Shown here: in pieces, positions 2,954-27,720 of the stretch
Layout: every line of letters begins with the position of its first letter
Numbering within the stretch: the stretch's first letter is position 1
Origin: Planctomycetota bacterium
Lineage (GTDB): Bacteria > Planctomycetota > Phycisphaerae > WQYP01
DNA length: 38,172 nt
NCBI GenBank assembly: GCA_021852275.1
Contig: JAJZNX010000196.1
Coordinates: forward strand, 1-38,172
Direction of reading: 5' to 3'
Made by a program: the position numbers and the translations under genes
The notes under the pieces: model-generated
The model's database searches: none
What the model was told of the DNA's origin: nothing
What the model saw: the letters and a program-made list of their open reading frames with translations, nothing else

Positions 2954-4333
2954 ATGAATACGCTGTGGCTTTCCCGCGTGCAGTTTGGTCTGACCATTTC
3001 TTTTCATTACTTATTTCCACCTTTAAGTATCGGATTGGGTGTGATGATGGTGACCATGGAGGCGATGTATCTTAAAACCCGCAATAAGGTTTATGAGAGC
3101 ATGGCTCGATTCTGGACCAAAATTTTTGCGCTCACGTTCGGCCTGGGAGTGGCCACTGGCATTGTGATGGAATTTGAGTTTGGTACCAACTGGGCGAATT
3201 ATTCCCGATTTGTAGGAGATGTATTTGGGGCCCCGCTGGCTTCGGAAGGAATTTTTGCGTTTTTTCTGGAATCGGGGTTCCTGGCCATTTTGCTGTTTGG
3301 CTGGGATCGGGTGGGGCCAAAGACGCACTTTTTCTCCACCATCATGGTGGCTTTCGGTTCCATTTTCAGTGCGTTGTGGATTAATGTTGCCAATTCCTGG
3401 ATGCAGACACCCGCCGGATTTCACCTGGTGCTGCACAATGGGGTACTGCGGGCACAAATCACAAACTTTTGGCAGGTAGTGTTTAATCCGTCCACGATGG
3501 ATCGGCTGGTGCATGTGCTGCTGGGGGCACTGCTGTCCGGGGCATTTCTGGTTCTGAGCGTAGGGGCGTATTATGTACTTAAACGTCGCCACGAGGATTT
3601 TGGCCGACGTTGCGTCAAAATGGCCTTGATCTTGGCGGTTGTTGGAGCGGTAGCGCAACTGGTATCAGGCGATTTTAACGCCAAGATGGTGGGAAAATAT
3701 CAACCGGCAAAACTGGCCGCATTTGAAGGACATTTTCCTGCGGACGCTCCGGCAGGCATGAGTCCTTTCGGCTGGGTGGACAGCAAAACTCAGACGGTAT
3801 ACGGCCCCAGGATACCGGGCATGCTCAGTTGGCTGATGTACTACAACACCAAAGCACCGGTTATCGGCCTGGATCATTTTCCTCCGGCGCTGCGGCCACC
3901 CGTGAATCCGGTATTTCAATCGTATCATGCGATGGTGGCCATTGGAATGGCTCTTATTCTGATCAGCCTGCTGGGCATTTTTTACTGGTGGCGGGGAACG
4001 CTGTTTCAAAAACGCTGGCTGCTGTGGATATTTGTAGTTTCCGTGGTTGGGCCGGAACTGGCCAATGAATTGGGCTGGTTTTCCGCAGAGGTGGGACGGC
4101 AACCCTGGATCGTATATGGCATTATGAAGACTTCGCAGGCGGTATCGCCGGATGTAGCTGCCGGAGAAGTACTTGCGTCCATCATTATGTTTGGGATTAT
4201 GTACGTGTTATTGGGATCGCTGTTCATATTTTTGATGAACCGCAAGATTCAGCAGGGGCCGGAAGAAGCAGCGGCCGTGCAGCCGCCGATACCTCCGCAT
4301 GTTGTTGAGGGGCACGGTCGGTTGAATGCGTAA
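2954..4333 (+). CDS. cydA: Cytochrome bd ubiquinol oxidase subunit I
   Basis: [43 protein letters not shown]; multi-pass protein followed by cydB. Confidence 0.95.
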
Positions 4334-4375
4334 CACGGCTGGTGGGGCTGGCAACAAAGTTAAGGTATCAGTATT

Positions 4376-5398
4376 ATGCATCATGAATTGAATGTAGTCT
4401 GGTTTGTGCTTCTGGGCATTTTATTCGCCGGTTACGCCATTCTCGATGGTTTCGATTTTGGCGTAGGCATGTTGCACCTGCTGGTGAAGGATGATGCCGA
4501 GCGACGTTTGCTGCTGAACTCCATCGGTCCGGTATGGGACGGCAATGAAGTATGGCTGGTAACTGGTGGAGGGGCCATGTTTGCGGCATTTCCAAATGTC
4601 TACGCCAGCCTGTTTTCAGGCTTTTATCCAGTGTTCATGCTGCTGTTGCTGGCTTTGATTTTTCGCGGGGTATCCATTGAGTTTCGGTCCAGGGAACCGA
4701 TGCGCTGGTGGCGCAATTTATGGGACACCAATTTCTTTATCGGCAGTATTTTGGCGGCACTGCTCCTGGGGGCTTTCGCCGGCAATATGGCATACGGTGT
4801 CGCATTAAATTCCCACGGGAACTATATTGGAGGATTCTGGGCGCTGTTGAACCCATACGCGCTGCTCGTGGGCATCACGACAGTGGCACTGTTTATGATG
4901 CACGGCTCGATTTATCTGGTTATGAAGACAGAAGGGGATTTGCACGACCGCCTGCGCGGTTGGGTGAATAATTCGATCATCTTCTTCATTATCTGCTATG
5001 CCACGACCACCATGGCCACATTGTTGTACGACCGGCATCTTACCAGTGAAATACGCAAACATCCGGTGTTTTTTATCGTGGCTATTTTGAATATGCTGGC
5101 AATTGCCAATATCCCGCGAGAGATATTTCACAAGCGAGATTTTCGGGCATTTTTATCCAGTTGCTTTTCAATTGTGGCACTCTTGTCACTTCTGGCCATC
5201 GGCTTGTTTCCCAATATCGTGTACGCCCGCAATAATCCGGCCAACAGCCTGACTATTTACAACGCATCGTCATCGCCCTATACGCTCAAAATTATGTGCA
5301 TCATCGCGCTGATTGGCATGCCCATTGTGCTGGCCTATACCACTTACGTGTATTGGTTATTTCGCGGTAAGGTGCGAATGGATGGGCATAGTTATTAA
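4376..5398 (+). CDS. cydB: Cytochrome bd ubiquinol oxidase subunit II
   Basis: LNVVWFVLLGILFAGYAILDGFDFGVGMLHLL...IGPVWDGNEVWLVTGGGAMFAAFP. Confidence 0.95.
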   Translation: MHHELNVVWFVLLGILFAGYAILDGFDFGVGMLHLLVKDDAERRLLLNSIGPVWDGNEVWLVTGGGAMFAAFPNVYASLFSGFYPVFMLLLLALIFRGVSIEFRSREPMRWWRNLWDTNFFIGSILAALLLGAFAGNMAYGVALNSHGNYIGGFWALLNPYALLVGITTVALFMMHGSIYLVMKTEGDLHDRLRGWVNNSIIFFIICYATTTMATLLYDRHLTSEIRKHPVFFIVAILNMLAIANIPREIFHKRDFRAFLSSCFSIVALLSLLAIGLFPNIVYARNNPANSLTIYNASSSPYTLKIMCIIALIGMPIVLAYTTYVYWLFRGKVRMDGHSY

Positions 5399-10132: not shown

Positions 10133-12193
10133 TTATTCAGTCTCCACAGCCGGTTTATATTGAGCGGCGAGTTTAGCCTGAAGTTGTGGTGGAACGGCGT
10201 CATAGTGGGAAAACTCCATCACAAAACTACCTTGCCCTGCAGTAAGGCTCCGCAGTTGACTATCATACTGTGTTACCTCCGCCAGGGGTGCTGTGGCCCG
10301 GACAATCGCGATGGATGGTACGGGCAAGTCCGTATGGGTAATGCGGCCGCGGCGGGTATTAAGATCGCTGGTAATCACCCCAAGAAAACATTCGGGGCTG
10401 GTGATTTCCAGAGTAACAATTGGTTCGATAAGGGCCGGTCTGGCCTTCAAAATGGCGTCGCGCACGGCAAATTTGCCGGCAATGCGAAATGCAATGTCCT
10501 TGGAATCCACGGGATGACTTTTACCGTCATGCACAATAACCCGTAAATCCTGTACCGGATATCCAGCCAGCGGACCGTGCTCAATCGCGTCATAAACACC
10601 CTTTTCGACAGACGCGATGTACTGAGATGGAATAGCCCCGCCGAAAACCTCGTTAACGAATTCCAGGCCACTGCCGCGGTCGAGCGGTTCCACCCGCAGG
10701 TAAACCTCGCCAAACTGGCCGGCCCCGCCGCTTTGCTTTTTGTGTCGATAATGCCCCTCAGCCTTAAGGCTGATTGTTTCCCGGTAGGCAATCCGCGGAG
10801 GCTGTGTGCCCACGTCAATGCCGAAGCGATTTTTCATTTTTTCCAGCATCACCCGCACGTGCATATCGCCGAGTCCATGTACGATGATCTCATGCGTCTG
10901 CGGATCGTGGGAAACCCGAAACGTTGGATCTTCTTCCACCAGTTTAGTCAAGGCGGCAGAGAGCTTGGCCTCATCACCACGGGATTTGGGCACAATGGCC
11001 ATGGAAAACATGGGCGTGGGATATTTCGGCGGCAGGGGCTTGAATTCGTCATGAAGCGTCACGGCATGGATAATCTGATCCACCTGCAAGTCTTCGATTT
11101 TTGAAACAGCCACCATATCTCCGGCGTAGGCCACTCCCGATTCCGGATGATCGCGACCCTCCACTTTGAGCACGTGGCCGGCCTTGTGAGTCTTTTTCTG
11201 TGTGCCACAGACAAAAGCCGTATTCGATTCCAGCTTGCCGCTAAGCATACGCAGCATGGCCAGTTTCCCGACATACGGATCTGTGGTGACCTTAAATACA
11301 TGAGCAAGCAGTGGTGCATTCGGATCCGCGGGGCATTCGATAATTTCTTCGGACACAGCGCCGCCGGCAGTGATCTTTCGTAACCTCTTGGGCCGGCCGG
11401 TCACGGGTGATGGCACGTCTTCAATGAGAATGTGCAGCAAATCATCGATCCCCACTTCCTGCCGGGCGGCAGTGAAGACAATGGGCACCACGTGGCCGAT
11501 ATTCATCGCCCGGATGAAGCAACTACGCAGTTCCGCCAAATCCATGGGTTGTCCGGCGAGATAGCGTTCGAGCTGAGCATCATCGATTTCAACCGTGGAT
11601 TCCACCATTTCCCGATGAATGTCGGTAACGTTTCCGAAATCCGCACGACCGGCGGTCTGATCAAAACAGTCGATAACGTCGGTGGCATTTTTACACGGAA
11701 GATTGATGCAATGAACCTCCGGTCCGAAACTGGCCTTGACCTGTTCCACCAAGGCCGGCAGATCCACGGCCTGATCTATCTTATTAATGACGATCATGCG
11801 GGCCAACCCCATTTCGCCGGCGGCGTGATACAACCGGCGACTGTTGAATTCAATGCCGCTTTGCGCGTTGATGACGATCACCGCCGTTTCCACCGCCGGC
11901 ATGGCCGCCAGGGCTTGACCGACAAAATCGGGATAACCTGGAGTATCGATTAAGTTAATCTGATGGCCCTGATGCGTAGCGTACATGAGGACGGAATTGG
12001 TGGAGTGTTTGTGCAGTCGGGCTTCCGGCTCAAAGTCTGAAAGGGTATTGGCCTGCTCCACACTTCCCATCCGCGAGATTACACCGCAACGATGGGCAAT
12101 GGCTTCTGCCAATGTAGTCTTCCCAGCCCCGGTATGACCCAGCAGGACAATATTGCGAATTTCTTCGGGCCGATAGCTGCGAGCCTGATCCAT
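10133..12193 (-). CDS. Elongation factor G-like translational GTPase (start at MDQARSY)
   Basis: P-loop GHTGAGKTT, DTPGYPDF, NKID, EF-G domains III-V (YRETISLKAEGHYRHKKQSGGAGQFGEVYLRVEPL). Confidence 0.9.
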   Translation of the reverse strand: MDQARSYRPEEIRNIVLLGHTGAGKTTLAEAIAHRCGVISRMGSVEQANTLSDFEPEARLHKHSTNSVLMYATHQGHQINLIDTPGYPDFVGQALAAMPAVETAVIVINAQSGIEFNSRRLYHAAGEMGLARMIVINKIDQAVDLPALVEQVKASFGPEVHCINLPCKNATDVIDCFDQTAGRADFGNVTDIHREMVESTVEIDDAQLERYLAGQPMDLAELRSCFIRAMNIGHVVPIVFTAARQEVGIDDLLHILIEDVPSPVTGRPKRLRKITAGGAVSEEIIECPADPNAPLLAHVFKVTTDPYVGKLAMLRMLSGKLESNTAFVCGTQKKTHKAGHVLKVEGRDHPESGVAYAGDMVAVSKIEDLQVDQIIHAVTLHDEFKPLPPKYPTPMFSMAIVPKSRGDEAKLSAALTKLVEEDPTFRVSHDPQTHEIIVHGLGDMHVRVMLEKMKNRFGIDVGTQPPRIAYRETISLKAEGHYRHKKQSGGAGQFGEVYLRVEPLDRGSGLEFVNEVFGGAIPSQYIASVEKGVYDAIEHGPLAGYPVQDLRVIVHDGKSHPVDSKDIAFRIAGKFAVRDAILKARPALIEPIVTLEITSPECFLGVITSDLNTRRGRITHTDLPVPSIAIVRATAPLAEVTQYDSQLRSLTAGQGSFVMEFSHYDAVPPQLQAKLAAQYKPAVETE

Positions 12194-12452
12194 ACAGTTT
12201 CCCTTCAGAGTAGTTTTGCCGACCGCTGGATGAGATTGTAACAAAAGGAGCGAAAATGACCATCAGCAGTCAGAGTTGCCTCTGCGATATCAGCCGCATT
12301 GAGACCGTCGTGATAGGATTCTTTGTTTCGCGGTACAAGGTGTCAAAGGCGTAGGGTTAGTTCATCGGCGGCTAAATCCATGATCGAGAGCATCGTTAAT
12401 GTTCGCCGCAGCGATGGAGATATCGCCGGTTAGTGCTCCGCAAAATTTGAAT

Positions 12453-13577
12453 TTATTTTGTGTGGCCCTTTACTTCGTGAGTAAGGGTTTGTCGCTGGAC
12501 TTCAAGTAAAAATGAATCGGCGGCGGCTAAGGAGGGAAACTCGGGTCCGCCGACATCCAGCCATACGCCGCGTGGGCCAATAGCTGCAAGCACAGCCAGG
12601 GCGTCGTCGGGATTTTCCGCCAGAATCTGGACTGCTTTGCCGGCGCTGCGGATGCGGCGGTAAACATCCATCCAAGCACTGGCAGGTCCATGTCCGGCTC
12701 CGAAAACCCACTGAATGGCATGGAGGTTCGGCAGTTCCAAAAGCAGATCGAGGTGGCGCAGAGCCTGCGGGCCATCGAGATGAAAGATACTGCGCTCCAA
12801 GGGTTGCATTTCTACGAGAATATCGGGCAAAATCATGTTGTCGGCCACCTCATCGGAAACCATGCACCAGAAATCACAACTCGGAACATAGGCCGGTCCT
12901 TGATGGTAAGACGGAGTCCAGCAGGTGCTGCCAAAACCTGCCTGTCGGATAATGGCGTATTGTCTTTTAAACGCTGCGGCAAATCCGTGGGAGACATGGC
13001 GACCTGCCTGCCGGACCAGCTCCGGAGCATCGAGAATATCTTCACACAATGCCTGGGGATCGCGCAGCGCCGCTAAAATATCATAGTTGCCATGCAAATC
13101 CGTCATTCCGACCACAAATCGCTGGTCGCAAATATCCAGAGCATAGCGCATCATGGCTTCTATGGTTTGCCAGTAGATGTTGGAAAAATCGGGCGGCGAG
13201 TCGATAATTCTCCGCCACTCGTTTTGGTGATGGACCACCGGGGAAGACCAACTGGTGTCGGGGCCGAATTCCAGCGGGCATCCGAACAGGGTGGCGGTAA
13301 TTTCCGGGCCGAGATTGGACCAGAAGATCGGCAAGGAATCGCCGGGATAAACGCGACTGGAGATGGCTTCTATGGCCGTGTCCACTACGTATTGCACGTC
13401 CATCCAGCGGTCGCGGAGCATGGCGGGTTGCGCACGTGACGGGGGCATGGCGGCGCGGGCCGGGGCTGCAACCCGGAGGGTTACAGGCGGACGATCCAGC
13501 ACCTGGCAATTCCACCAGGCTTCAAACCGGTCGATGGTACGTCCGAAATCGGGCTTCAATTGGAGTTCACGGATCAT
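12453..13577 (-). CDS. UroD/MtaA-superfamily protein (paralog 4 of the operon)
   Basis: UroD-like TIM-barrel pattern; SIFHLDGPQALRHLDLLLELPNLHAIQWV. Confidence 0.75.
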   Translation of the reverse strand: MIRELQLKPDFGRTIDRFEAWWNCQVLDRPPVTLRVAAPARAAMPPSRAQPAMLRDRWMDVQYVVDTAIEAISSRVYPGDSLPIFWSNLGPEITATLFGCPLEFGPDTSWSSPVVHHQNEWRRIIDSPPDFSNIYWQTIEAMMRYALDICDQRFVVGMTDLHGNYDILAALRDPQALCEDILDAPELVRQAGRHVSHGFAAAFKRQYAIIRQAGFGSTCWTPSYHQGPAYVPSCDFWCMVSDEVADNMILPDILVEMQPLERSIFHLDGPQALRHLDLLLELPNLHAIQWVFGAGHGPASAWMDVYRRIRSAGKAVQILAENPDDALAVLAAIGPRGVWLDVGGPEFPSLAAADSFLLEVQRQTLTHEVKGHTK

Positions 13578-13580
13578 GGT

Positions 13581-14852
13581 TTAGTCCGATCGGAGTGCCG
13601 CAGTGGTCGCGACGGAAAAAGAGTCCTTGAAATTACCAAATTCTTTTCCAGCCTGATACATCGCTTCTATATTTTCCAGTGGCGTAAAGGGAGCCAGATT
13701 ATTGCCTTCCCGCAAGACAAATAAACCTCCCTCCAGAATGCCGGACTGCATAATACGTTGCACTTCTGTGCGAATGGCGGCGGGATTGCCGGTACGCAGC
13801 AATTCCACGTGCGGACCTCCATTGATACGGACCTTGGGACCCAATTGGTGCCGCAACTTGCCAAAGTTGACCGGGAAACCGGTATCAAAAGACCAGACAT
13901 TCAATTCGTCACGAATGGTTAAAAAATGGCGGGTGGCATCTCCGCATAGATGAATGCTTCGCCGCCCGGCGGGGCACAGAGCGTCACAAAGCCAACGATG
14001 GTGCGGCAGAACGTGCTGACGGTACATATCGGTGGAAATCAGGGCGATGCTGTCGTCGGCAAAACCAAAATCTGTGACCGTCAGCGGCATACCGGTCCGC
14101 TTTCGCCAGGCGGTCATGCGCTGAATTGTGGCTTCGGTAATGAACTCGAAGAGCCGGTACAATCGTTGTGGTTCGGTCACCATGGCGGTGCACACAAATT
14201 CGGGGCCGAAAACGTTGCAGGCCACGGTCATCACGCCGTCGGTACCCAGGCCAAAGCTCGGCGTAGTGACTTCGATAGGGATATCGCAGTAGGTCTGCCG
14301 GGCCGCAAGCTCTTGGAAGTACTGAAAATAATCCCAGCCTCTGGCCATCAGCCCTCCAAATGGATCGGGCAGGCCGCGGTCCAGGATCCGCTCCGGATGA
14401 TCCGTAAATGCCGGGGTGGTGTCCGGCACCTGGCCTTCGAGATAGATAATGGGGCAGCCAAACCAACCGGCTTCGTAGTAATTTTGAAAATCCGGTGCCA
14501 GAGACCACTTCCGGGGCAGGCCGAGCTGGGCATCCTGAAGAATGTTATGGCGCGACCAGCGTTGAAATTGCAGTTGACTGTTAAACATGATCCGAGGATT
14601 TTCGGAATATTCCTGAAAGCTCACTCCCGACGGATTCGCTTGCGAATTGAAAAGAAAATAGCGTGAATTGACACCGACCACTATGGGCGTGCGAATGGGT
14701 CGGCCTTCATTAAATGCCTGCCAGACTTGCTCTACTTCGATGTTGTGTGTGGCGAAATCCAGGTGGGCCAGGTGGTCGGTTTCCAGCGAATGTGGTTGCA
14801 TGGTGGTCTGTTCCTTTTTGTGGCTGTCGTCCGACCCAGTTCCGCAAGCCAT
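13581..14852 (-). CDS. UroD/MtaA-superfamily methyltransferase-like protein (paralog 3; start may be 14801)
   Basis: SIHLCGDATRHF (HxC) and NNLAPFTPLENIEAMY near the C terminus. Confidence 0.85.
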   Translation of the reverse strand: MACGTGSDDSHKKEQTTMQPHSLETDHLAHLDFATHNIEVEQVWQAFNEGRPIRTPIVVGVNSRYFLFNSQANPSGVSFQEYSENPRIMFNSQLQFQRWSRHNILQDAQLGLPRKWSLAPDFQNYYEAGWFGCPIIYLEGQVPDTTPAFTDHPERILDRGLPDPFGGLMARGWDYFQYFQELAARQTYCDIPIEVTTPSFGLGTDGVMTVACNVFGPEFVCTAMVTEPQRLYRLFEFITEATIQRMTAWRKRTGMPLTVTDFGFADDSIALISTDMYRQHVLPHHRWLCDALCPAGRRSIHLCGDATRHFLTIRDELNVWSFDTGFPVNFGKLRHQLGPKVRINGGPHVELLRTGNPAAIRTEVQRIMQSGILEGGLFVLREGNNLAPFTPLENIEAMYQAGKEFGNFKDSFSVATTAALRSD

Positions 14853-14855
14853 GAT

Positions 14856-15935
14856 CTATCCTGGTGCTTTCAAGGTGGCGGCTGTTTCATACATGGCAAT
14901 GACATTTTCCACGGGTGTAACCGCCTGGATATTGTGGCAAGGGGCGCAGAACCAGCGGCACGATTTGAATATCTCGGCGGTTTGGCGTACCTCCTCGGCC
15001 ACCTGCTGGGGGGTGCCGAAAGGGAGTGTCTGCTGGTTGTCTATGGCACCATGAAAGGCCACCAGATGGCCGAAGTCGCGGGCCAGGGTTTCCCGTTCCA
15101 TCCCCGGACATCGCCATTGAATGGGGTTGAGCACCTCAATACCGACTGTGTCAATGAGATCCGCAATGAATGGTTGGGCCGCGCCGTCCGTATGGTAAAA
15201 AATGTGAATGTCGAAGGATCGGGCCAGATCGGCCATGCGTTTCTGATAGGGGAGAAGGAACCGACGGTAGATTTCCAGGCTAAAGAGCGGTCCGGTCTGG
15301 CCGGCCAAATCCTCCGCGACGTAGGTCATGTCGATATGACCGTGGCCGGCCTGAAAAATGCGCCGATTGTGTTCAAAAAAGAAGGCGAACATTTTTTCCA
15401 GGGCGGCTTCGACCATGCCGGTATTAAGCAGCATGTCTTCGTAAGCCTGTTCCATACCGCGCATACCGGCGTAGATGAGGAACGGCTCGTATCCACCGGC
15501 TTGAATAATGCGGTACCCATCGTCATGCTGCAATGCCTCGGTGATGGGTGAATAATCAAAATCGTCCGGGTCCGGCCAGCGAAACGCCCGTACTTGATCG
15601 GGTGTGGTCATGGAAGCCAGCGGACCGGTGGCGAATTCATCATACGCTCCGGTTCCGTAGTCGATGCGGCGGTGCCGGTTGCCCCACATATCGGCCTGTG
15701 GATCATCCGGATGAGCCTGGAGTTTCCACCGCGGACCTACCCCGCGCGGATGGTCGATATTGAGCCGCCGCCAGAGAATTTCGTCAGTGCTTCGGTGTGG
15801 CACCTCTGTACCGATGATACCAAGCTTGGCCAGTATTTTCGCGTGGAATTCGCTCGTGGCCCAGTAGTCGGTGGGTATGCGATCGGCGGGCTGCTGGTTA
15901 AGTAACGCAAGCCAGCGTTGTCGTGGTGTCATCAT
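14856..15935 (-). CDS. UroD/MtaA-superfamily methyltransferase-like protein (paralog 2)
   Basis: MTPRQRWLALLNQQPADRIPTDYW; FYHTDGAAQPFIADLIDTVGIEVLNPIQ; CAPCHNIQAVTPVENVIAMYETA. Confidence 0.9.
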   Translation of the reverse strand: MMTPRQRWLALLNQQPADRIPTDYWATSEFHAKILAKLGIIGTEVPHRSTDEILWRRLNIDHPRGVGPRWKLQAHPDDPQADMWGNRHRRIDYGTGAYDEFATGPLASMTTPDQVRAFRWPDPDDFDYSPITEALQHDDGYRIIQAGGYEPFLIYAGMRGMEQAYEDMLLNTGMVEAALEKMFAFFFEHNRRIFQAGHGHIDMTYVAEDLAGQTGPLFSLEIYRRFLLPYQKRMADLARSFDIHIFYHTDGAAQPFIADLIDTVGIEVLNPIQWRCPGMERETLARDFGHLVAFHGAIDNQQTLPFGTPQQVAEEVRQTAEIFKSCRWFCAPCHNIQAVTPVENVIAMYETAATLKAPG

Positions 15936-15944
15936 GCGGAATCC

Positions 15945-17027
15945 TTATGCATAGTGTCCATAGTTCTTGACCATACGAATGATGGCTTGATAAGTGTGCC
16001 AGCTGACCTGAGGTGGCACACTGTGATCGCTATGGTAAATGTACCCTTTGGTAGCCATGCCGGCGGCGAATTTGACCTTTATTTCCTCTTCGATGGCGGC
16101 CAGGTCGTTGGTGGCCATTTTCATCACATCGATGTTGCCGAAGAATGCAAGCTCTCGGCCATATTTCGGGCAGAGCTTGCGAATATCCACGCCGGCTTTG
16201 GCCTCAAGAGGTTGCAGACAATCAAACCCGGCTTTGACGTATAAATCCATCACGCCGTTGATATCGCCATCAGTGTGATAGATGAATTTCATGTTGTGCG
16301 CGTGGGCCCAGTCGGCGAGTCTCTTGTGATCAGGCCAGATCAATTCCCTATACATCTCTGGTGAGCACATGGTCGCATGGTTATAGGCCATGTCGCCGTA
16401 GATCCACAGGCCGTCAGGTTGAATGCCGGTGGCCATGGCGGCATCAAAGTTACGCAAAGCCTGGTCAGTAAAGGTGCGGGAAACATCGCGAACCCATTCG
16501 GGGTCTTCCACCATGGCCATGAGCGTGATTTCATCGCCCATGAGCGACCGGGTTTCTTCAAAACTTTCGACACCGGTCAGATGGCACCAGAGCTTTTTCG
16601 AACGACCCTGCCGATAGTTCCGTTTAACCGCATCCGGATCCAGTTGCAGACCGGTATCCAGCAAAGCCGGTTTGAAGGTGCGTTCCCACACATCCCGTGA
16701 GGAGCACTCAAAGCCCAGATGTTCAGGGGTTCCGCTTTTTTCTTTCCAATAACGCACGCGTTTGCCCTGGGAATCGCGCACCACGCGGGTTTGGGCGTCT
16801 TCTTCAATAAGTGTGTCCTGGCCAGGAAAAATACAGGGCCATACCCAGCACAAGCCGTGAAAGTCGCTGCCCAGCATATCTAAAACAGTCTGGGCATCGC
16901 CGGAAAGGCCTTCATCTTTCCAGCGGGTGATTGTTTCACCCCAGAAGGATTCGTGTCGCGGCACGCGGTCGTGATCCTGCCGCGTCAAGGCCCGATTCAC
17001 ACGTTCCTGGCTGGTAAGTTGGGTCAT
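15945..17027 (-). CDS. UroD/MtaA-superfamily methyltransferase-like protein (paralog 1; start at MTQLTSQERV)
   Basis: ERVNRALTRQDHDRVPRHESFW; FIYHTDGDINGVMDLYVKAGFDCLQPLEAKAGVDI; YIYHSDHSVPPQVSW. Confidence 0.9.
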   Translation of the reverse strand: MTQLTSQERVNRALTRQDHDRVPRHESFWGETITRWKDEGLSGDAQTVLDMLGSDFHGLCWVWPCIFPGQDTLIEEDAQTRVVRDSQGKRVRYWKEKSGTPEHLGFECSSRDVWERTFKPALLDTGLQLDPDAVKRNYRQGRSKKLWCHLTGVESFEETRSLMGDEITLMAMVEDPEWVRDVSRTFTDQALRNFDAAMATGIQPDGLWIYGDMAYNHATMCSPEMYRELIWPDHKRLADWAHAHNMKFIYHTDGDINGVMDLYVKAGFDCLQPLEAKAGVDIRKLCPKYGRELAFFGNIDVMKMATNDLAAIEEEIKVKFAAGMATKGYIYHSDHSVPPQVSWHTYQAIIRMVKNYGHYA

Positions 17028-17028
17028 G

Positions 17029-18279
17029 TCAATTTCCCTTAGAAAAAACTGTTGATGCGACAATCTGTGAGGTGCCGTCGGATTTGACGACCTCTCCATT
17101 GCGGCAGATCAACTGGATCTGGCGCAAAGAATTTATATCTTTGAATGGCGAACCGGCCAGGCCGATGAAATTCGCGGTTTGTCCCACGGCCACATTTGCC
17201 GGTGGTGCATTCCACAGTTGGCGCGGCACGCTCGTGGCGGCGCTGAGCACCTGCTCTACCGTCAGCCCGGCCTGCCGCAAAAACAGCAGTTCATCAATGA
17301 GGCCCGTGCCGTGCGGCACGCCGTAGCTTCCCGCGTCGGATCCGGCGACCACGGGGACTCCCTTCGCGGCGGCCCCGGCAACGTTATGAAAATGATTCTG
17401 CAAAATGGCGTGGAGTTTATCCAGGGTGGACGGGTTCCATTTGGTGACATCGGGACGGGCGAATTGAAAATAAACCGGTGCAAAAGTGGGCACCCAGGCG
17501 GTACCCTTGTCGGCCATTTTCTTAACGATGTCAGGTTCCATGAAAAAACCATGCTCAATGGAATCGATTCCCGCTTCCACGGCAATGTTAAGCCCTTCCG
17601 GCCCGTTGCAATGGGCGTAGGTTTTCAGGCTCAGGCGGCGAGCCGTGCGCACAATCAAACGTGTTTCTTCCAGGTCAAATTGCACGGGTCCCTTGACGCA
17701 GCCATTTTCGAAATCAATGATGCCGGTCAGTAGAATTTTCAAATCGTCGGCGGTGGGGGCCAGGCTCTCAATGGTTCGTTCGATACTTTCCGCATCACGG
17801 ACCTCCAGGGCCATGAAACTTCCATAGCGACCGGTCTTGCGGATGGCCCGGCCGGGACTGCGCAACTCAGGTACTACGCCGGAGGCGTGGGTAATTTCTT
17901 CTTTCAAATGAGTGTTGATACCGTGGATATCGCCGGCGTCACGGATCAGGGTAATGCCCACGGCGAGATTAGCCGCCAAGTTGACGCGACCGGTGCCAAG
18001 CATCTGCGAGCGTCCGGCGTTGAGGTAATCCTTGCGCCGGGCTAAATCCAATTCGCTGCCGTCCAGAAACAAATGGCAGTGGGCTTCGACGAGTCCCGGC
18101 ATGACAAACGCTGTGTGCAGACGCGGCGTGGTGGCTTGGATGGCTGGAACACCATCGCCAGGTAGAAGGACGCAAATGTCACGAATAATACCGTTGGTGA
18201 GGGTAAACAAATATGGACCTGCACTGTGGTTCTGCCGCCCATCAAAATAGCTTTCCGCCTGAATCAGCAGGTTATTCAT
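17029..18279 (-). CDS. Metal-dependent amidohydrolase
   Basis: HxH (EAHCHL), KTYAHCNG, DSIEHGFF and catalytic Asp AGSDAGSYG all present; start overlaps the preceding stop by 4 bp. Confidence 0.88.
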   Translation of the reverse strand: MNNLLIQAESYFDGRQNHSAGPYLFTLTNGIIRDICVLLPGDGVPAIQATTPRLHTAFVMPGLVEAHCHLFLDGSELDLARRKDYLNAGRSQMLGTGRVNLAANLAVGITLIRDAGDIHGINTHLKEEITHASGVVPELRSPGRAIRKTGRYGSFMALEVRDAESIERTIESLAPTADDLKILLTGIIDFENGCVKGPVQFDLEETRLIVRTARRLSLKTYAHCNGPEGLNIAVEAGIDSIEHGFFMEPDIVKKMADKGTAWVPTFAPVYFQFARPDVTKWNPSTLDKLHAILQNHFHNVAGAAAKGVPVVAGSDAGSYGVPHGTGLIDELLFLRQAGLTVEQVLSAATSVPRQLWNAPPANVAVGQTANFIGLAGSPFKDINSLRQIQLICRNGEVVKSDGTSQIVASTVFSKGN

Positions 18280-19166
18280 CCCTCGTCCCTTTGGTAAAGC
18301 CGGCGAACGCGCTCCAAGGTATCAAAACCCTCCAGAGCAATGGCCTGCTGGAAGCCTTGCAGCACAAAATCATCGGGCGGCAGAATGCGGTAATCGCGGC
18401 CGGGCGTGCCTAAAACAGTGTCCAGACCGTGCGGCATGGTCAGGGTGAGAAAGGCCGATTCTATTTTTACCGGTAGCGGGCTGCCATCCACCGCAACTTT
18501 AGGCAGCATGATGCCCAGATTGGAAAGCCCCACCACCAGATGAATTCCGCGAAGGTCAGCATCAGCGCCGATGAGCCGGATGGCCTCTATAGCCCGCCGC
18601 ACCAGGCCATTGGTATCCATCGCGATCGGCGTGAGCGATACATCAACAAATAAGTCCTCAGGCCCCAAGCCATAGCCGTTCGAGAGAATGTTATGCACCA
18701 TCCGATGCACGGTGGAGGCAATCTCGGTGGGCGTTTCATTGGGCACGGGTTGGCCGTCTTCCATCCGTTCAGAGGCCATGAGCACCACTTTGGCGGCGGT
18801 TATCTTGAGTACATCGAGCATATCCCAGCGCAATTCAGAAATGGAATTGACGATAGGTTTACGGCCCTGGGCTTTGGCTGGCTGCCATGCCTTGAGGCAG
18901 ATTTCCTGTACGGCCCGGTTGGGATAATCAAAAGACAGGGGCAGATGGCTGACGGCTTGCACGGCCTGGATGACATCCACCAAAAATCCGCTGTCGCGCT
19001 CCGCCCGATCTCCAATGTTAATCGTCAGGTAATCGCAGCCTTTAGCGGTCTGGGATCGGGCCAGTTCCTGGAGGCCGGAGATATCACCACCATCAAGCAT
19101 GGCCTTGGATTTGGCGAACCCCGGATTAATGCGCTCACCGATGATTTTCAGACTGGGGATGGACAT
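18276..19166 (-). CDS. Pterin-binding methyltetrahydrofolate:corrinoid methyltransferase (AcsE/MtrH/MtvA-like)
   Basis: IIGERINPGF, DYLTINIGDRAERDSGFLVDVIQAVQ, IVNSISELRWDMLDVL, VGLSNLGIMLP: MeTr barrel signatures. Confidence 0.88.
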   Translation of the reverse strand: MSIPSLKIIGERINPGFAKSKAMLDGGDISGLQELARSQTAKGCDYLTINIGDRAERDSGFLVDVIQAVQAVSHLPLSFDYPNRAVQEICLKAWQPAKAQGRKPIVNSISELRWDMLDVLKITAAKVVLMASERMEDGQPVPNETPTEIASTVHRMVHNILSNGYGLGPEDLFVDVSLTPIAMDTNGLVRRAIEAIRLIGADADLRGIHLVVGLSNLGIMLPKVAVDGSPLPVKIESAFLTLTMPHGLDTVLGTPGRDYRILPPDDFVLQGFQQAIALEGFDTLERVRRLYQRDEG

Positions 19167-20533
19167 GCGGCCCTCATACCACGAGTTTTAACAGATGAAA
19201 TAACCGTATTGGCACCAGGCTCCGGCAATAACGGTTCCGGTGGCGATGGCTTCCAATCTGATCGACTGGCCGGCAGATCGCCAACCAGGCCCGGCAGCAC
19301 CGCGTGATCCGGACCAAAGAGCATCAGATGGACGCCGGCAACGCCTGGAATGTCATAAACTTCCTCGATAATTTTGCGGGCGGCGGCCAACCCCGCGGTA
19401 ACAATATCGGGGGCCTGCTTCAAATGCCGGATCATTTCCGCCGGAAGATGTGCTCCGGGTATTTTCGGCAGCAGATCCAAAGCCTTCATGGATGTTACCA
19501 CCGGTACGCCGACAATCAGAAATACATCTTCATTCATTTTTTCCTGCCGAAACAGATCCATGAATTGACGCAAGCGTGGCACGTCAAATACCAATTGCGT
19601 CTGGATAAAATCGACGCCGGCGGCAATTTTTTGCTTGAGTCGGCGAATGGGTACGTCAATCGGCTCGGTATACGGATTAATGGCCGCACCAAGGAACGGT
19701 TGCGGGGTGGGTTGCATCGTCTCGCCGGTGAAACGGATGATGCCGGTCTGGCGCAGATACCGGGCTTCATAAATCATCAGCGCGGCATCCATGTCAAACA
19801 CCTGTTTAATCTTGGGCATCCCGCTGTAGGAATCGCCCGTCAGGCACATCACGTTATGGACATCGTTGATCTGGTTTTCAAGCAGCTCCGCGATAAAGGT
19901 GGTTCGGGTATGATCTCGACAGGTAGACTGGCAAATTGCCTCTATACCCATCTGGCCAAGTTTAACCGCCGCCATCGGTGAGGAGATCGATGGCCGGGCA
20001 TTTAAGTATGCGGTGGCGTTGACGGCGTCAAAGTGATCACGCGCCAGCAGGGCCTGACGCACAAAGCTGTCCCACCGGGCAGTGCGCGGCGCACGAATTT
20101 CGCAGGTTTTGACGAAGGCCCCGGATTTTAACCGTCGTTCCAACCGGGAGGGCGTGGCCACAGGCTGGCGAGTACGTTGTGGTCCTAAATCCAGATAGGG
20201 CAAAGGTGTGCGGCCGCTGCGGTCTGATCCGGCCAGCATATTCAGATAGGATGAGGTATTAAATAAACGGGCGTCGGGCGAGGGTAGCAATGGTGGTGTT
20301 TCCAAGGAATCACCGGCGATGCGATGGCCGATACGTACCCACACGCAACGGCGATCTGGATATACTTCACATTCTCCATGCAAGGTACCGCCACAGGGGC
20401 CATTACGCAGGCCCTTGGGGCAAGTCATGGGACAGATCAACCCGGTTTGGCTAAGCACACACTGGCCGCAGGATTGGCAGTCAAACACTAATCCCTTCAA
20501 AAAAGCTTCAATGTGAGCCACGGTTTTCTGCAT
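19148..20533 (-). CDS. Fusion of N-terminal MetV-like Cys-rich domain and C-terminal methylenetetrahydrofolate reductase (MetF-like) domain
   Basis: N-term CQSCGQCVLSQTGLICPMTCPKGLRNGPCGG...GECEVYPDRRCVWVR; C-term MTHFR barrel AGVDFIQTQLVFDVPRLRQFMD..VGVPVVTSMKAL. Confidence 0.88.
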   Translation of the reverse strand: MQKTVAHIEAFLKGLVFDCQSCGQCVLSQTGLICPMTCPKGLRNGPCGGTLHGECEVYPDRRCVWVRIGHRIAGDSLETPPLLPSPDARLFNTSSYLNMLAGSDRSGRTPLPYLDLGPQRTRQPVATPSRLERRLKSGAFVKTCEIRAPRTARWDSFVRQALLARDHFDAVNATAYLNARPSISSPMAAVKLGQMGIEAICQSTCRDHTRTTFIAELLENQINDVHNVMCLTGDSYSGMPKIKQVFDMDAALMIYEARYLRQTGIIRFTGETMQPTPQPFLGAAINPYTEPIDVPIRRLKQKIAAGVDFIQTQLVFDVPRLRQFMDLFRQEKMNEDVFLIVGVPVVTSMKALDLLPKIPGAHLPAEMIRHLKQAPDIVTAGLAAARKIIEEVYDIPGVAGVHLMLFGPDHAVLPGLVGDLPASRSDWKPSPPEPLLPEPGANTVISSVKTRGMRAACPSPV

Positions 20534-20593
20534 GGATACCTGCCTTTGCCGGATGGTGCTCTGCGTTGCGGAAAAGACGGCTGTTGAAGCCGT

Positions 20594-21232
20594 TCAGGCT
20601 GCCGCCACCAGTCTCCGTGCCGTATCTACCGCTCCGGCGGCATCGGCGGCAAAACCATCCGCGCCTATTTCCCTGGCAAAGGATTCGGTAATCGGGGCAC
20701 CGCCAATCACCACCTTTAGTCCCGGTAGATCAGCGGCTTTCAAGGCCAGAACCGTTTGTTTCATAGCTGGCATGGTGGTGGTAAGCAGGGCCGAGAGACC
20801 CACCACTTTGGCCTTATGTTCGCGGGCGGCGGCGATGAATTTCTCAGCAGGTACATTGGATCCCAAGTCCACAACGCCGAAGTTTGCCCCCTTCCACATC
20901 ATGGCGACAAGGTTTTTTCCGATGTCGTGAAGATCTCCCTGCACCGTGCCGATGACGGCCGTGAATTCCGGCTTGATACCCGCTTTCACCAGCAGCGGCT
21001 CCAGCAGGGCCATGCTTTCGCGCATGGCCCGAGCAGCAATGAGCATTTCCGGAACGAAGACCTGATTGCATTGAAACTTGCGGCCCACATCGTCCATGGC
21101 GGCTACCATGGCGGCGAGCACTTGGGCAGGCGGGGTGGCGGCTTCGATGGCCTGTTTGGTCAGACGCACCGCTTCGGCGCGGTTGCCCTTGCCGATGGCC
21201 AACGTAAGCGAATTGAGATCAACCTCTACCAT
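20594..21232 (-). CDS. Corrinoid (B12-binding) methyltransferase protein, MtaC/MtvC-like
   Basis: FVPEMLIAARAM helical cap, GDLHDIGKNLVAMM (DxHxxG), GLSALLTTTMPAMK, VVIGGAPIT; GGAG SD 8 nt before ATG. Confidence 0.95.
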   Translation of the reverse strand: MVEVDLNSLTLAIGKGNRAEAVRLTKQAIEAATPPAQVLAAMVAAMDDVGRKFQCNQVFVPEMLIAARAMRESMALLEPLLVKAGIKPEFTAVIGTVQGDLHDIGKNLVAMMWKGANFGVVDLGSNVPAEKFIAAAREHKAKVVGLSALLTTTMPAMKQTVLALKAADLPGLKVVIGGAPITESFAREIGADGFAADAAGAVDTARRLVAAA

Positions 21233-21335
21233 GACATATTCTCCATAAATAAAAGGAGGAACATGCCGACGCACAGAATAATGCTACAATTATGGGATCG
21301 GACACGCAAGTGCCAGTGGGAGGGGGCTTAAAATT

Positions 21336-25653: not shown

Positions 25654-26538
25654 ATGGCACGCACAGAAAAATTCAATGTGGGACTGGTGCAGATGAGTTG
25701 CGTGGATCATACAGCAACCAACATGGACAAGGCTGTAGCGCTCATACGGCAGGCGGCCCAACGCGGTGCGCAGGTGATCTGCACCCAGGAACTCTTTCGC
25801 AGTTTGTATTTCTGCCAGACCCAGGATTTGCAGCTTTTTGACCTGGCAGAGACGATTCCGGGGTCGTCCACGGAAGTTTTCGGGCGGCTGGCGAAAGAAC
25901 TGGGTGTGGTGCTGGTAGTGTCGCTGTTTGAGAAACGGGCGGCGGGAATTTATCACAATACCGCAGCGGTATTGGATGCCGATGGAGCATTGCTGGGTGT
26001 GTACCGTAAGATGCATATTCCGGATGATCCGCTGTATTTTGAGAAATACTATTTCACGCCGGGGGACCTGGGCTTTAAGGCCTTTGATACGCGATTTGGC
26101 CGGTTGGGGGTTTTGATCTGCTGGGATCAATGGTATCCGGAGGCGGCTCGGCTGACGGCCATGCAGGATGTGAGCGTACTGTTTTACCCCACCGCCATCG
26201 GCTGGCATCCCCGGGAAAAGGCGGAATTTGGTGAAGCCCAGGTTAGCGCCTGGCAAACGATGCAGCGATCACATGCGATTGCCAATGGCGTGTACGTAGC
26301 GGCGGTCAACCGCGTGGGACATGAAGGAGCGACGGGTGGCGGGATTGAATTTTTCGGCAGTTCATTTATCTGTGATCCGTTCGGGCGAGTGCTGGAACAG
26401 GCGGGACGGCGGGAAGAAGAAATATTAATTGCTGAAATTGATCCTGCCCAGCAGGAAATAACGCGACGCAACTGGCCATTTTTCCGGGATCGGCGTATTG
26501 AGTATTACGGCCCGTTGACCAAGCGTTTTGGCGACTAA
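25654..26538 (+). CDS. aguB: N-carbamoylputrescine amidase (carbon-nitrogen hydrolase)
   Basis: QVICTQELFRSLYFCQTQD; YRKMHIPDDPLYFEKYYFTPGDLGFK; LGVLICWDQWYPEAARL. Confidence 0.95.
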   Translation: MARTEKFNVGLVQMSCVDHTATNMDKAVALIRQAAQRGAQVICTQELFRSLYFCQTQDLQLFDLAETIPGSSTEVFGRLAKELGVVLVVSLFEKRAAGIYHNTAAVLDADGALLGVYRKMHIPDDPLYFEKYYFTPGDLGFKAFDTRFGRLGVLICWDQWYPEAARLTAMQDVSVLFYPTAIGWHPREKAEFGEAQVSAWQTMQRSHAIANGVYVAAVNRVGHEGATGGGIEFFGSSFICDPFGRVLEQAGRREEEILIAEIDPAQQEITRRNWPFFRDRRIEYYGPLTKRFGD

Positions 26539-26607
26539 CATTCACGAGCCTGGTGCGGGTGAACAGGCTGGCCGCGAGCCTGTACCCGGTGGCTATCGAA
26601 AGGTTTT

Positions 26608-27720
26608 ATGGGCACAGTGCAGCAGAACAATTCCGTTCCTTCCAGACAGGGTTTTTCCATGCCGGCGGAATGGGACCGGCATGCCGCCACGTGGCTGGCC
26701 TGGCCGCATCATCGGGCGGATTGGCCGGGGAAATTTGGTCCGATTCCGTGGATATTTGCCGAAATTGTACGTTTGATTGCAGCCGGGGAAGTGGTGCACA
26801 TTCTGGTACAAGATGCCACTGAGCGAGCTGTGGCCAGGAAGATACTGGTGCGAAACCATGGTGAAGAATTTGGCAATGTCCGACTTCATATTCGCCCGAC
26901 CGATCGCATATGGACCCGCGATTCAGGCCCAACGATGGTGCGTCGAGGTCATGGTGCCGCAGCTCAATTAGCAGCCGTTGGCTGGCAGTTTAACGCGTGG
27001 GCAAAGTACAAAAACTATCTTCTGGACCAGCAGGTACCGCGGTTTATCGCCCGGTCGGCCGGTCTGTCTTTATATCAGCCGATGGTGAAGGGGACGGATG
27101 GAAAGCCACGGCGTTTTGTGCTCGAAGGAGGAAGCATAGATGTCAATGGCGCGGGCTGTGTTTTAACCACCGAAGAATGTTTGCTTTCGCCAAAGCAACA
27201 GCGCAATCCCGGACTGGATCAGGCGGCGGTGGAACATACTCTCTGTGATTTTCTGGGAGTGCAGAAAGTGCTGTGGCTGGGGCAGGGCATCGCCGGTGAT
27301 GATACACATGGTCATATTGATGACACCGCCAGGTTTACTGCTCCATCCACCATTGTCGCGTGTGTCGAGCCTGAGAAGCAGGATCCCAATCATCAGCCGC
27401 TGGCGGAAAATATGCGTCGGCTGAAAAAAATGCGAGATCACCGTGGACGCCCTTTTGACCTGGCGGAGCTGCCCATGCCCAAGCCGGTGATTTTTGATGG
27501 ACAGCGTCTGCCGGCGAGTTATGCCAATTTTTATGTCTGCAACGCCGGGGTGCTGGTGCCGGTCTTTAATGATCCAGCCGATGGTGCAGCACTGAAGGTA
27601 TTGGAGGCGTGTTTTACCGACCGTCCGGTGATACCCGTATATTGCCGCGATATGGCGTGGGGCTTGGGCACGTTACACTGCATGACACAACAGCAGCCGG
27701 CCGCAGCCAATGGCCGGTAA
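26608..27720 (+). CDS. aguA: Agmatine deiminase
   Basis: MPAEWDRHAATWLAWPHH; RIWTRDSGPTMV; GDDTHGHIDDTARF; GLGTLHCMTQQQP. Confidence 0.95.
   Translation: MGTVQQNNSVPSRQGFSMPAEWDRHAATWLAWPHHRADWPGKFGPIPWIFAEIVRLIAAGEVVHILVQDATERAVARKILVRNHGEEFGNVRLHIRPTDRIWTRDSGPTMVRRGHGAAAQLAAVGWQFNAWAKYKNYLLDQQVPRFIARSAGLSLYQPMVKGTDGKPRRFVLEGGSIDVNGAGCVLTTEECLLSPKQQRNPGLDQAAVEHTLCDFLGVQKVLWLGQGIAGDDTHGHIDDTARFTAPSTIVACVEPEKQDPNHQPLAENMRRLKKMRDHRGRPFDLAELPMPKPVIFDGQRLPASYANFYVCNAGVLVPVFNDPADGAALKVLEACFTDRPVIPVYCRDMAWGLGTLHCMTQQQPAAANGR

Follow-up and report, generated by a model that had tools for sequence, protein, structure and literature searches.

A conserved planctomycete operon predicted to encode a corrinoid- and tetrahydrofolate-dependent demethylation module with an amidohydrolase partner

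Introduction

Most of what is known about corrinoid-dependent demethylation with a folate acceptor comes from acetogens, methanogens and a few methylotrophs. In this work, we analyzed a stretch of DNA of 38,172 nucleotides from a member of the Planctomycetota (assembly GCA_021852275.1, contig JAJZNX010000196.1; this whole stretch is hereafter called the window). Eight adjacent minus-strand genes spanning positions 12453-21232 encode, in the order of transcription, a corrinoid protein (Corr), a MetVF fusion, a MeTr-type methyltransferase (MeTr), an amidohydrolase and four UroD-type proteins (UroD-1 to UroD-4). As judged by sequence comparison, this operon is a new variant of the corrinoid/folate methyltransferase systems, the nearest known of which are the Mto/Mtv O-demethylases, Cdm and Cmu. 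With a probability of about 0.72, we consider that it encodes a corrinoid- and tetrahydrofolate (H4folate)-dependent demethylation module. If this is correct, the operon would represent a further route by which methyl groups are processed with B12, and in some members these groups may derive from lignin-type compounds.

Comparison with known systems

The Mtv/Odm/Mto systems of acetogens and Methermicoccus (PMC8630106) are similar to the window operon in that they contain a UroD-superfamily methyltransferase I, an MtgC-like corrinoid protein, a MeTr-like methyltransferase II and a RACo-type activator with an N-terminal 2Fe-2S domain, and the Mto operon carries two MtoB genes (PMC8630106). In contrast to MtvABC, OdmABCD and MtoABCD, the window operon contains four UroD genes of different subfamilies, a MetVF fusion and a conserved amidohydrolase; its genome shows neither acetogenesis nor methanogenesis, and the activator is at another locus. 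The chloromethane dehalogenase CdmBCA of Acetobacterium also has a separate methyltransferase I, corrinoid protein and methyltransferase II, as found here, and the paper describing it mentions no amidohydrolase (PMC13222342). The UroD proteins of the proteobacterial relatives were closest in the PDB to CdmB (9rui, E value of 2e-49 with a mixed profile), a match that rests on the proteobacterial members of that profile. In the comparison with the MtvB/OdmB/MtoB clade, which was represented by CdmB alone, the mixed profile was matched, and UroD-3 alone revealed only MtaA.

The elements of a three-component corrinoid/H4folate system were all found, namely, a UroD-fold methyltransferase I, a corrinoid protein with a DxHxxG motif, a MeTr with an intact folate pocket and a RACo in the genome. 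Because these sequence features were present and those of the cmu, type 1 mlp and acetogenic systems were not, we assigned the operon as a variant of the corrinoid/H4folate type.

Conservation of the operon

The genomes compared were mostly metagenome assemblies, and the window's own genome is 82% complete. All eight genes were present in identical order in three congeneric genomes (G002, G003 and G004; copies L055-L057) with protein identities of 84-99%, and a fourth congener (G001, a 69%-complete assembly) retained at least UroD-2, UroD-3 and UroD-4. Because the order of all eight genes is kept in three other genomes of the genus, they are, on the evidence of gene order, a conserved operon. 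Three genomes from a second family within the class (L046-L048; Phycisphaerales metagenome-assembled genomes L062, L063 and L065) also keep the Corr-MetVF-MeTr-amidohydrolase order, at 57-66% identity, but have different UroD subfamilies after the amidohydrolase. By these comparisons, the conserved core is composed of Corr, MetVF, MeTr and the amidohydrolase, and the UroD genes are exchanged for other subfamilies in related families. A preliminary description of the window, made from its sequence, had proposed to look for co-conservation of all eight genes; this was found within the genus, but beyond it only the core was kept.

An alignment-based search for MeTr in 85,462 species genomes revealed 45 loci with MeTr identities of 42-99%. 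The amidohydrolase directly followed MeTr in 43 of these 45 loci, and RACo and MetVF were found in the flanks of 33 and 31 loci, respectively. The two loci with no amidohydrolase were L067, where the contig ends, and L068 of Herbaspirillum sp. ST 5-3, which contains MeTr-Corr-RACo and FolD. Among the more distant MeTr proteins listed (26-36% identity), there was no match to this amidohydrolase. The core genes recurred in Planctomycetota, Verrucomicrobiota, Lentisphaerota, Actinobacteria and Proteobacteria, and the usual proteobacterial order was (MetVF)-Corr-UroD-X-RACo-MeTr-amidohydrolase, where X is a protein of approximately 230 residues with no Pfam match. The pairwise distances among MeTr, RACo, Corr, MetVF and the proteobacterial UroD proteins were correlated (r of 0.74-0.90).

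We also observed that X immediately precedes RACo in 23 clusters from Proteobacteria and Actinobacteria (among L070-L099; e.g., L083:7526-8110 and L092:7395-8087), and that a DUF1638-type protein occupied a similar place in clusters of the Planctomycetes-Verrucomicrobia-Chlamydiae group and in some Burkholderiales clusters. The carriers of the cluster include two culturable bacteria, Azospirillum sp. TSO22-1 (L083) and Paramagnetospirillum caucaseum SO-1 (L096).

Residues, corrinoid activator and folate route

The Pfam scan of the operon revealed two B12-binding domains in Corr, a MetV-like domain followed by a methylenetetrahydrofolate reductase (MTHFR) domain, Pterin_bind, Amidohydro_1, and URO-D in three of the four UroD genes. 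In the base-off motif DLHDIG of Corr, the D, H and G residues (DxHxxG) were invariant in 30 relatives. The PDB relatives of MeTr were the methyl-H4folate:corrinoid/FeS protein methyltransferases 2yci and 2e7f, and also 4o0q/4o1e; its pterin-pocket residues D80, N107, D175 and N216, whose role is that of their counterparts in AcsE, were invariant in 43 sequences. The MetVF relatives that adjoin MeTr were 62-95% identical. The domain content, conserved order and intact residues are thus in keeping with the corrinoid/H4folate methyl-transfer operon that had been proposed from the sequence.

The absence of a RACo-type activator, also noted in the preliminary description, applies to the window, but the window's own genome encodes one RACo on another contig (G000:C143:20870-21649, 239 bits), which contains Raco_middle and RACo_C_ter domains and an N-terminal CX5CX2C motif and adjoins a UroD gene. 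The operon and C143 loci are tied together by this UroD, which has a relative of 68% identity inside the MeTr-amidohydrolase cluster of G014. RACo was found in all ten MeTr-positive genomes (10/10). Within the window's own family, it was present in 7/7 MeTr-positive genomes versus 4/21 others (Fisher p = 2.8e-4, with kinship ignored). In three Phycisphaerales genomes, RACo and Corr are divergent neighbors; many Proteobacteria have RACo between Corr and MeTr. At two of the three Phycisphaerales loci, an extra gene was found beside RACo, which encodes a DUF1638 protein in the annotated one (L062).

FolD was present in the window's own genome, and in L077 and L096 it comes after the amidohydrolase. 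Neither acsB nor Fhs was found in ten genomes with the system, eight of which were at least 90% complete (own assembly, 82%), and the acetogenic Wood-Ljungdahl combination of acsB/CdhC with formyl-H4folate synthetase was likewise not found among them. Subunits I and II of cytochrome bd (PF01654 and PF02322) were located at window positions 2954-5398 on the plus strand. These results are in agreement with the earlier suggestions that the genome has cytochrome bd and that its host may not be a classical acetogen, and they answer the accompanying proposal to search for an activator, acsB, fhs and folD. The absence of acsB and Fhs, together with the presence of FolD and a PurU-like gene, favors oxidation or assimilation of the methyl group over acetogenesis, and oxidation of methyl-folate via MetVF is likely. 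In a Lentisphaerae cluster (L069:7513-9975), an electron transfer flavoprotein alpha/beta pair and an MTHFR-like gene precede MeTr, and L089 has a similar layout; the arrangement in L069 suggests a flavin-linked MetF route there.

Proposed mechanism and substrate

We infer the catalytic activity, the direction toward demethylation, the substrate and the role of the amidohydrolase from sequence. In the proposed mechanism, at least one of the four UroD-type proteins, as methyltransferase I, would take a methyl group off a methylated compound, probably an O-methylated one, and place it on the Co(I) of Corr, and MeTr, as methyltransferase II, would transfer it from Corr to H4folate. MetVF would then oxidize methyl-H4folate to methylene-H4folate, which could enter serine synthesis or be converted to formate via FolD and the PurU-like enzyme, and the RACo encoded on C143 would re-reduce corrinoid that has been oxidized to Co(II).

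According to the rule described in PMC10418091, the metal motifs of the window UroD proteins argue against thiol or selenol substrates and are compatible with O-methyl donors. VanA-type oxygenases were found near six proteobacterial or actinobacterial clusters (five by Pfam and L082 by BLAST clustering), and one VanB-like reductase, one LigB ring-cleavage enzyme, a CoA-ligase-like gene and branched-chain-type binding proteins were also found near clusters of this branch. These neighbors make methoxylated aromatics plausible as substrates for that branch. No aromatic-degradation genes were co-located with the window operon, which has EF-G-like and UDPGP genes as neighbors. One Phycisphaerales genome has a heparinase-like gene close to the cluster, and another has a SASA-esterase gene there; together with the identity of approximately 20% between UroD-3 and the proteobacterial UroD, these neighbors mean that the planctomycete substrate is not narrowed to aromatics. 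For the planctomycetes, a methoxylated aromatic compound is a tentative candidate, a methylated sugar or another O-methylated compound is almost as likely, and a halomethane is improbable, with the rest of our expectation falling on other compounds.

Several observations weigh against the demethylation module. The UroD-type methyltransferases are reversible, and the sequence does not fix the direction. The RACo of the window's own genome and the operon are on different contigs, and the PurU-like protein of this genome scored below the family cut-off (238 vs 286 bits). Additionally, the proposed mechanism leaves the role of the amidohydrolase unexplained, and the distances of this protein were the least congruent with those of the other components (r of 0.41-0.69). 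Finally, no orthology links the window UroD proteins to the proteobacterial UroD (UroD-3 shares 18-21% identity with it), and thus the aromatic clue is not simply transferable.

Alternative explanations

Halomethane utilization of the cmu type would assign dehalogenation of CH3Cl or CH3Br to the UroD and corrinoid proteins and the subsequent steps to MeTr and MetF, with the amidohydrolase as the counterpart of HutI. The parts list of the cmu pathway in Methylorubrum CM4 and Hyphomicrobium MC1 is indeed very similar, as it comprises the UroD/corrinoid protein CmuA, the methyltransferase II CmuB, the UroD-like CmuC, MetF2, the amidohydrolase-family protein HutI, FolD and PurU (PMC3621897, PMC4949252), and it serves H4folate oxidation in a respiring bacterium. 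Moreover, UroD-2 is 29% identical to the N-terminal part of CmuA and to CmuC of Methylorubrum CM4 (E value of about 2e-13), and Corr is 34% identical to the C-terminal part of CmuA. However, CmuA is a UroD-corrinoid fusion, and no such fusion is present in the window; CmuB, annotated as an MtrH-type protein, has no similarity to MeTr that BLAST could detect; and no RACo gene is annotated in the cmu flanks shown. The match of the amidohydrolase to HutI, at only 24% identity, is weaker than its matches to many unrelated amidohydrolases, and a test for a special kinship of the two found none. We regard this explanation as improbable. A search of plasmids for CmuB with MeTr as the query returned only relatives of approximately 23-29% identity and no cmu gene.

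A type 1 mlp-like cluster is a still poorer candidate, although mlp clusters likewise combine several different UroD paralogues with one corrinoid protein and a RACo-type activator (PMC10418091). Type 1 mlp clusters are reported from obligate anaerobes only and have no H4folate methyltransferase (PMC10418091), whereas here MeTr and MetVF belong to the core and the genome encodes cytochrome bd; in addition, the His-Cys-Cys zinc site of mlp is absent where the window proteins could be aligned to MtaA, as the position of the third ligand is not Cys in UroD-2 and UroD-3. Only a slim chance is given to a split B12-dependent methionine synthase, in which MeTr and Corr would be the folate and B12 modules and the UroD proteins would methylate homocysteine or another acceptor in the reverse direction. 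MeTr and Corr are homologous to modules of MetH, the reactions are reversible, and a verrucomicrobial cluster (L066, 5828-6718) has a homocysteine S-methyltransferase gene between Corr and a DUF1638 gene. Nevertheless, the window's own genome contains a full-length MetH-like frame of 1217 residues on C161, none of the annotated parts of the other core clusters shows a homocysteine methyltransferase domain, and the core clusters carry MetVF, and sometimes FolD, which fits the oxidation of methyl-folate. Demethylation of an N-methyl or quaternary amine of the betaine type was judged the least probable, even though Corr scored best with the MtgC/MtbC models of betaine and dimethylamine systems, albeit below their cut-offs. 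The known methyltransferase I proteins of these systems belong to the MttB/MtgB family and not to UroD, and no member of the MttB/MtgB family was found in the operon.

The amidohydrolase

Although the preliminary description had listed the amidohydrolase simply as one gene among eight, it is, in terms of gene neighborhoods across five phyla, the most faithful partner of MeTr, in contrast to the variable UroD genes. All six of its metal ligands (H67, H69, K181, H223, H243 and D315) were invariant in 38 sequences, and its PDB relatives were amidohydrolases such as 8ihq and the Xaa-Pro dipeptidase 2qs8. We infer a house-keeping role for this protein, which would be tied to folate or to a shared product and not to the recognition of one substrate. 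The possibility that it stands in for a missing folate cyclohydrolase or PurU was abandoned on account of the FolD and PurU-like genes of the window's own genome.

The MeTr-amidohydrolase pair was found to have no description in the full-text literature searched, a coverage that leaves most subscription papers and preprints outside. We tentatively suggest, at somewhat less than even odds, that the pair is the hallmark of corrinoid/H4folate demethylation systems of an as yet undescribed class, present in several phyla and largely in non-acetogens. The hydrolase would be a working part of this class, acting for example on folate species or on a blocked methyl donor, and interchangeable UroD proteins would set the substrate range; an enzyme of this kind would then have been recruited independently as the HutI of cmu. 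Since the core recurs in several phyla, a demethylation system of wide distribution may still lack an assigned function, and the central question is the job of the amidohydrolase after MeTr. A similar question stands for HutI, which helps growth on chloromethane but is not required for it (PMC4949252).

UroD-type proteins

The assignment of four UroD-type proteins stands, by sequence for three of them and by structure modeling and profile comparison for UroD-4. No Pfam, NCBIfam or PDB sequence match was found for UroD-4, whose family is represented in 82 of the 299 class genomes. The AlphaFold model of UroD-4, based on an alignment of 24 members, had a mean predicted local distance difference test (pLDDT) score of 92.3, and its best PDB matches were MtaA (4ay7, methylcobalamin:coenzyme M methyltransferase; E value of 1.6e-8) and uroporphyrinogen decarboxylases, with TM scores of 0.54-0.61 by query length. 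Two members of the family matched PF01208 weakly (best E value of 5e-5), and the comparison of the UroD-4 and UroD-1 family profiles gave an E value of 2e-5, versus 0.31 for an unrelated control. An earlier model from six sequences (pLDDT of 47) gave meaningless Foldseek matches, and profile comparison with shallow alignments gave no usable result. RACo was present in 36 of 38 genomes with the UroD-4 family versus 17 of 63 without it (Fisher p of 4e-12, with kinship ignored), a count that assumes, as the genome numbering suggests, that the 101 genomes searched for RACo all belong to the class sample.

The His-Cys-Cys site of thiol and selenol methyltransferases was not seen in the window UroD proteins. 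When aligned to MtaA, UroD-2 and UroD-3 have no Cys as the third ligand, and UroD-2 also has HxD in place of HxC; UroD-1 and UroD-4 have an H-x-D-G motif. The UroD-1 family could be aligned with the UroD that adjoins RACo on C143. When the single UroD of the proteobacterial clusters was compared with the window proteins, its best match, a weak one, was most often UroD-3. The placement of the UroD subfamilies is incomplete, since the named reference methyltransferase I sequences compared were CdmB, MtaA and CmuA only. Five further UroD-family genes were observed on contigs C58, C191, C33, C93 and C115 of the window's own genome (L050-L054), outside the two corrinoid loci; the one on C58 shares approximately 50% identity with UroD genes that adjoin the amidohydrolase in Phycisphaerales.

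Gene coordinates and neighboring features

The open reading frames (ORFs) of the eight genes were confirmed at the coordinates given beforehand (Table 1). The distances between them, in transcription order, were 60, -19, -4, ~0, 9, 3 and 3 bp, and the overlaps of 19 bp between MetVF and MeTr and of 4 bp between MeTr and the amidohydrolase are exactly those described earlier. An overlap of 71 bp between the amidohydrolase and UroD-1 vanishes when UroD-1 starts at the internal Met24 (~17030). The start of Corr is an ATG at 21232, and its frame remains open up to a GTG at 21274.

Table 1. Coordinates and sequence features of the eight genes of the window operon.
Predicted product	Position	Strand	Domains and features
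Corrinoid (B12-binding) protein, methyl carrier	20594..21232	-	PF02310 + PF02607; NCBIfam MtgC/MtbC-like
MetVF fusion	19148..20533	-	MetV-like Cys-rich N-terminal domain PF12225 + methylene-H4folate reductase PF02219
MeTr-type methyl-corrinoid:H4folate methyltransferase	18276..19166	-	PF00809 (Pterin_bind)
Amidohydrolase-superfamily hydrolase	17029..18279	-	PF01979; complete binuclear metal site
UroD-type 1	15945..17030	-	PF01208; likely start Met24, ORF open to 17099; metal motif HTDG
UroD-type 2	14856..15935	-	PF01208; aligned to MtaA 4ay7
UroD-type 3	13581..14852	-	PF01208; MtaA 4ay7, E value 5e-5
UroD-type 4	12453..13577	-	Divergent family; no Pfam/NCBIfam match; structure model MtaA/UroD-like

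No riboswitch was found near the operon in the Rfam search. Promoter-like sites numbered 14, compared with 7.8 (standard deviation 3.6) in shuffled sequence, and no promoter is claimed because this excess is only modest. The operon is flanked on the same strand by a UDPGP-family gene upstream and an EF-G-like gene downstream. The latter (10133-12244) also adjoins the operon in G004, where it is 98% identical, and was not seen there in G002. Additionally, a pair of genes encoding a carbon-nitrogen hydrolase and a peptidyl-arginine (agmatine) deiminase-type protein (25654-27720) is conserved beside the operon in the genus.

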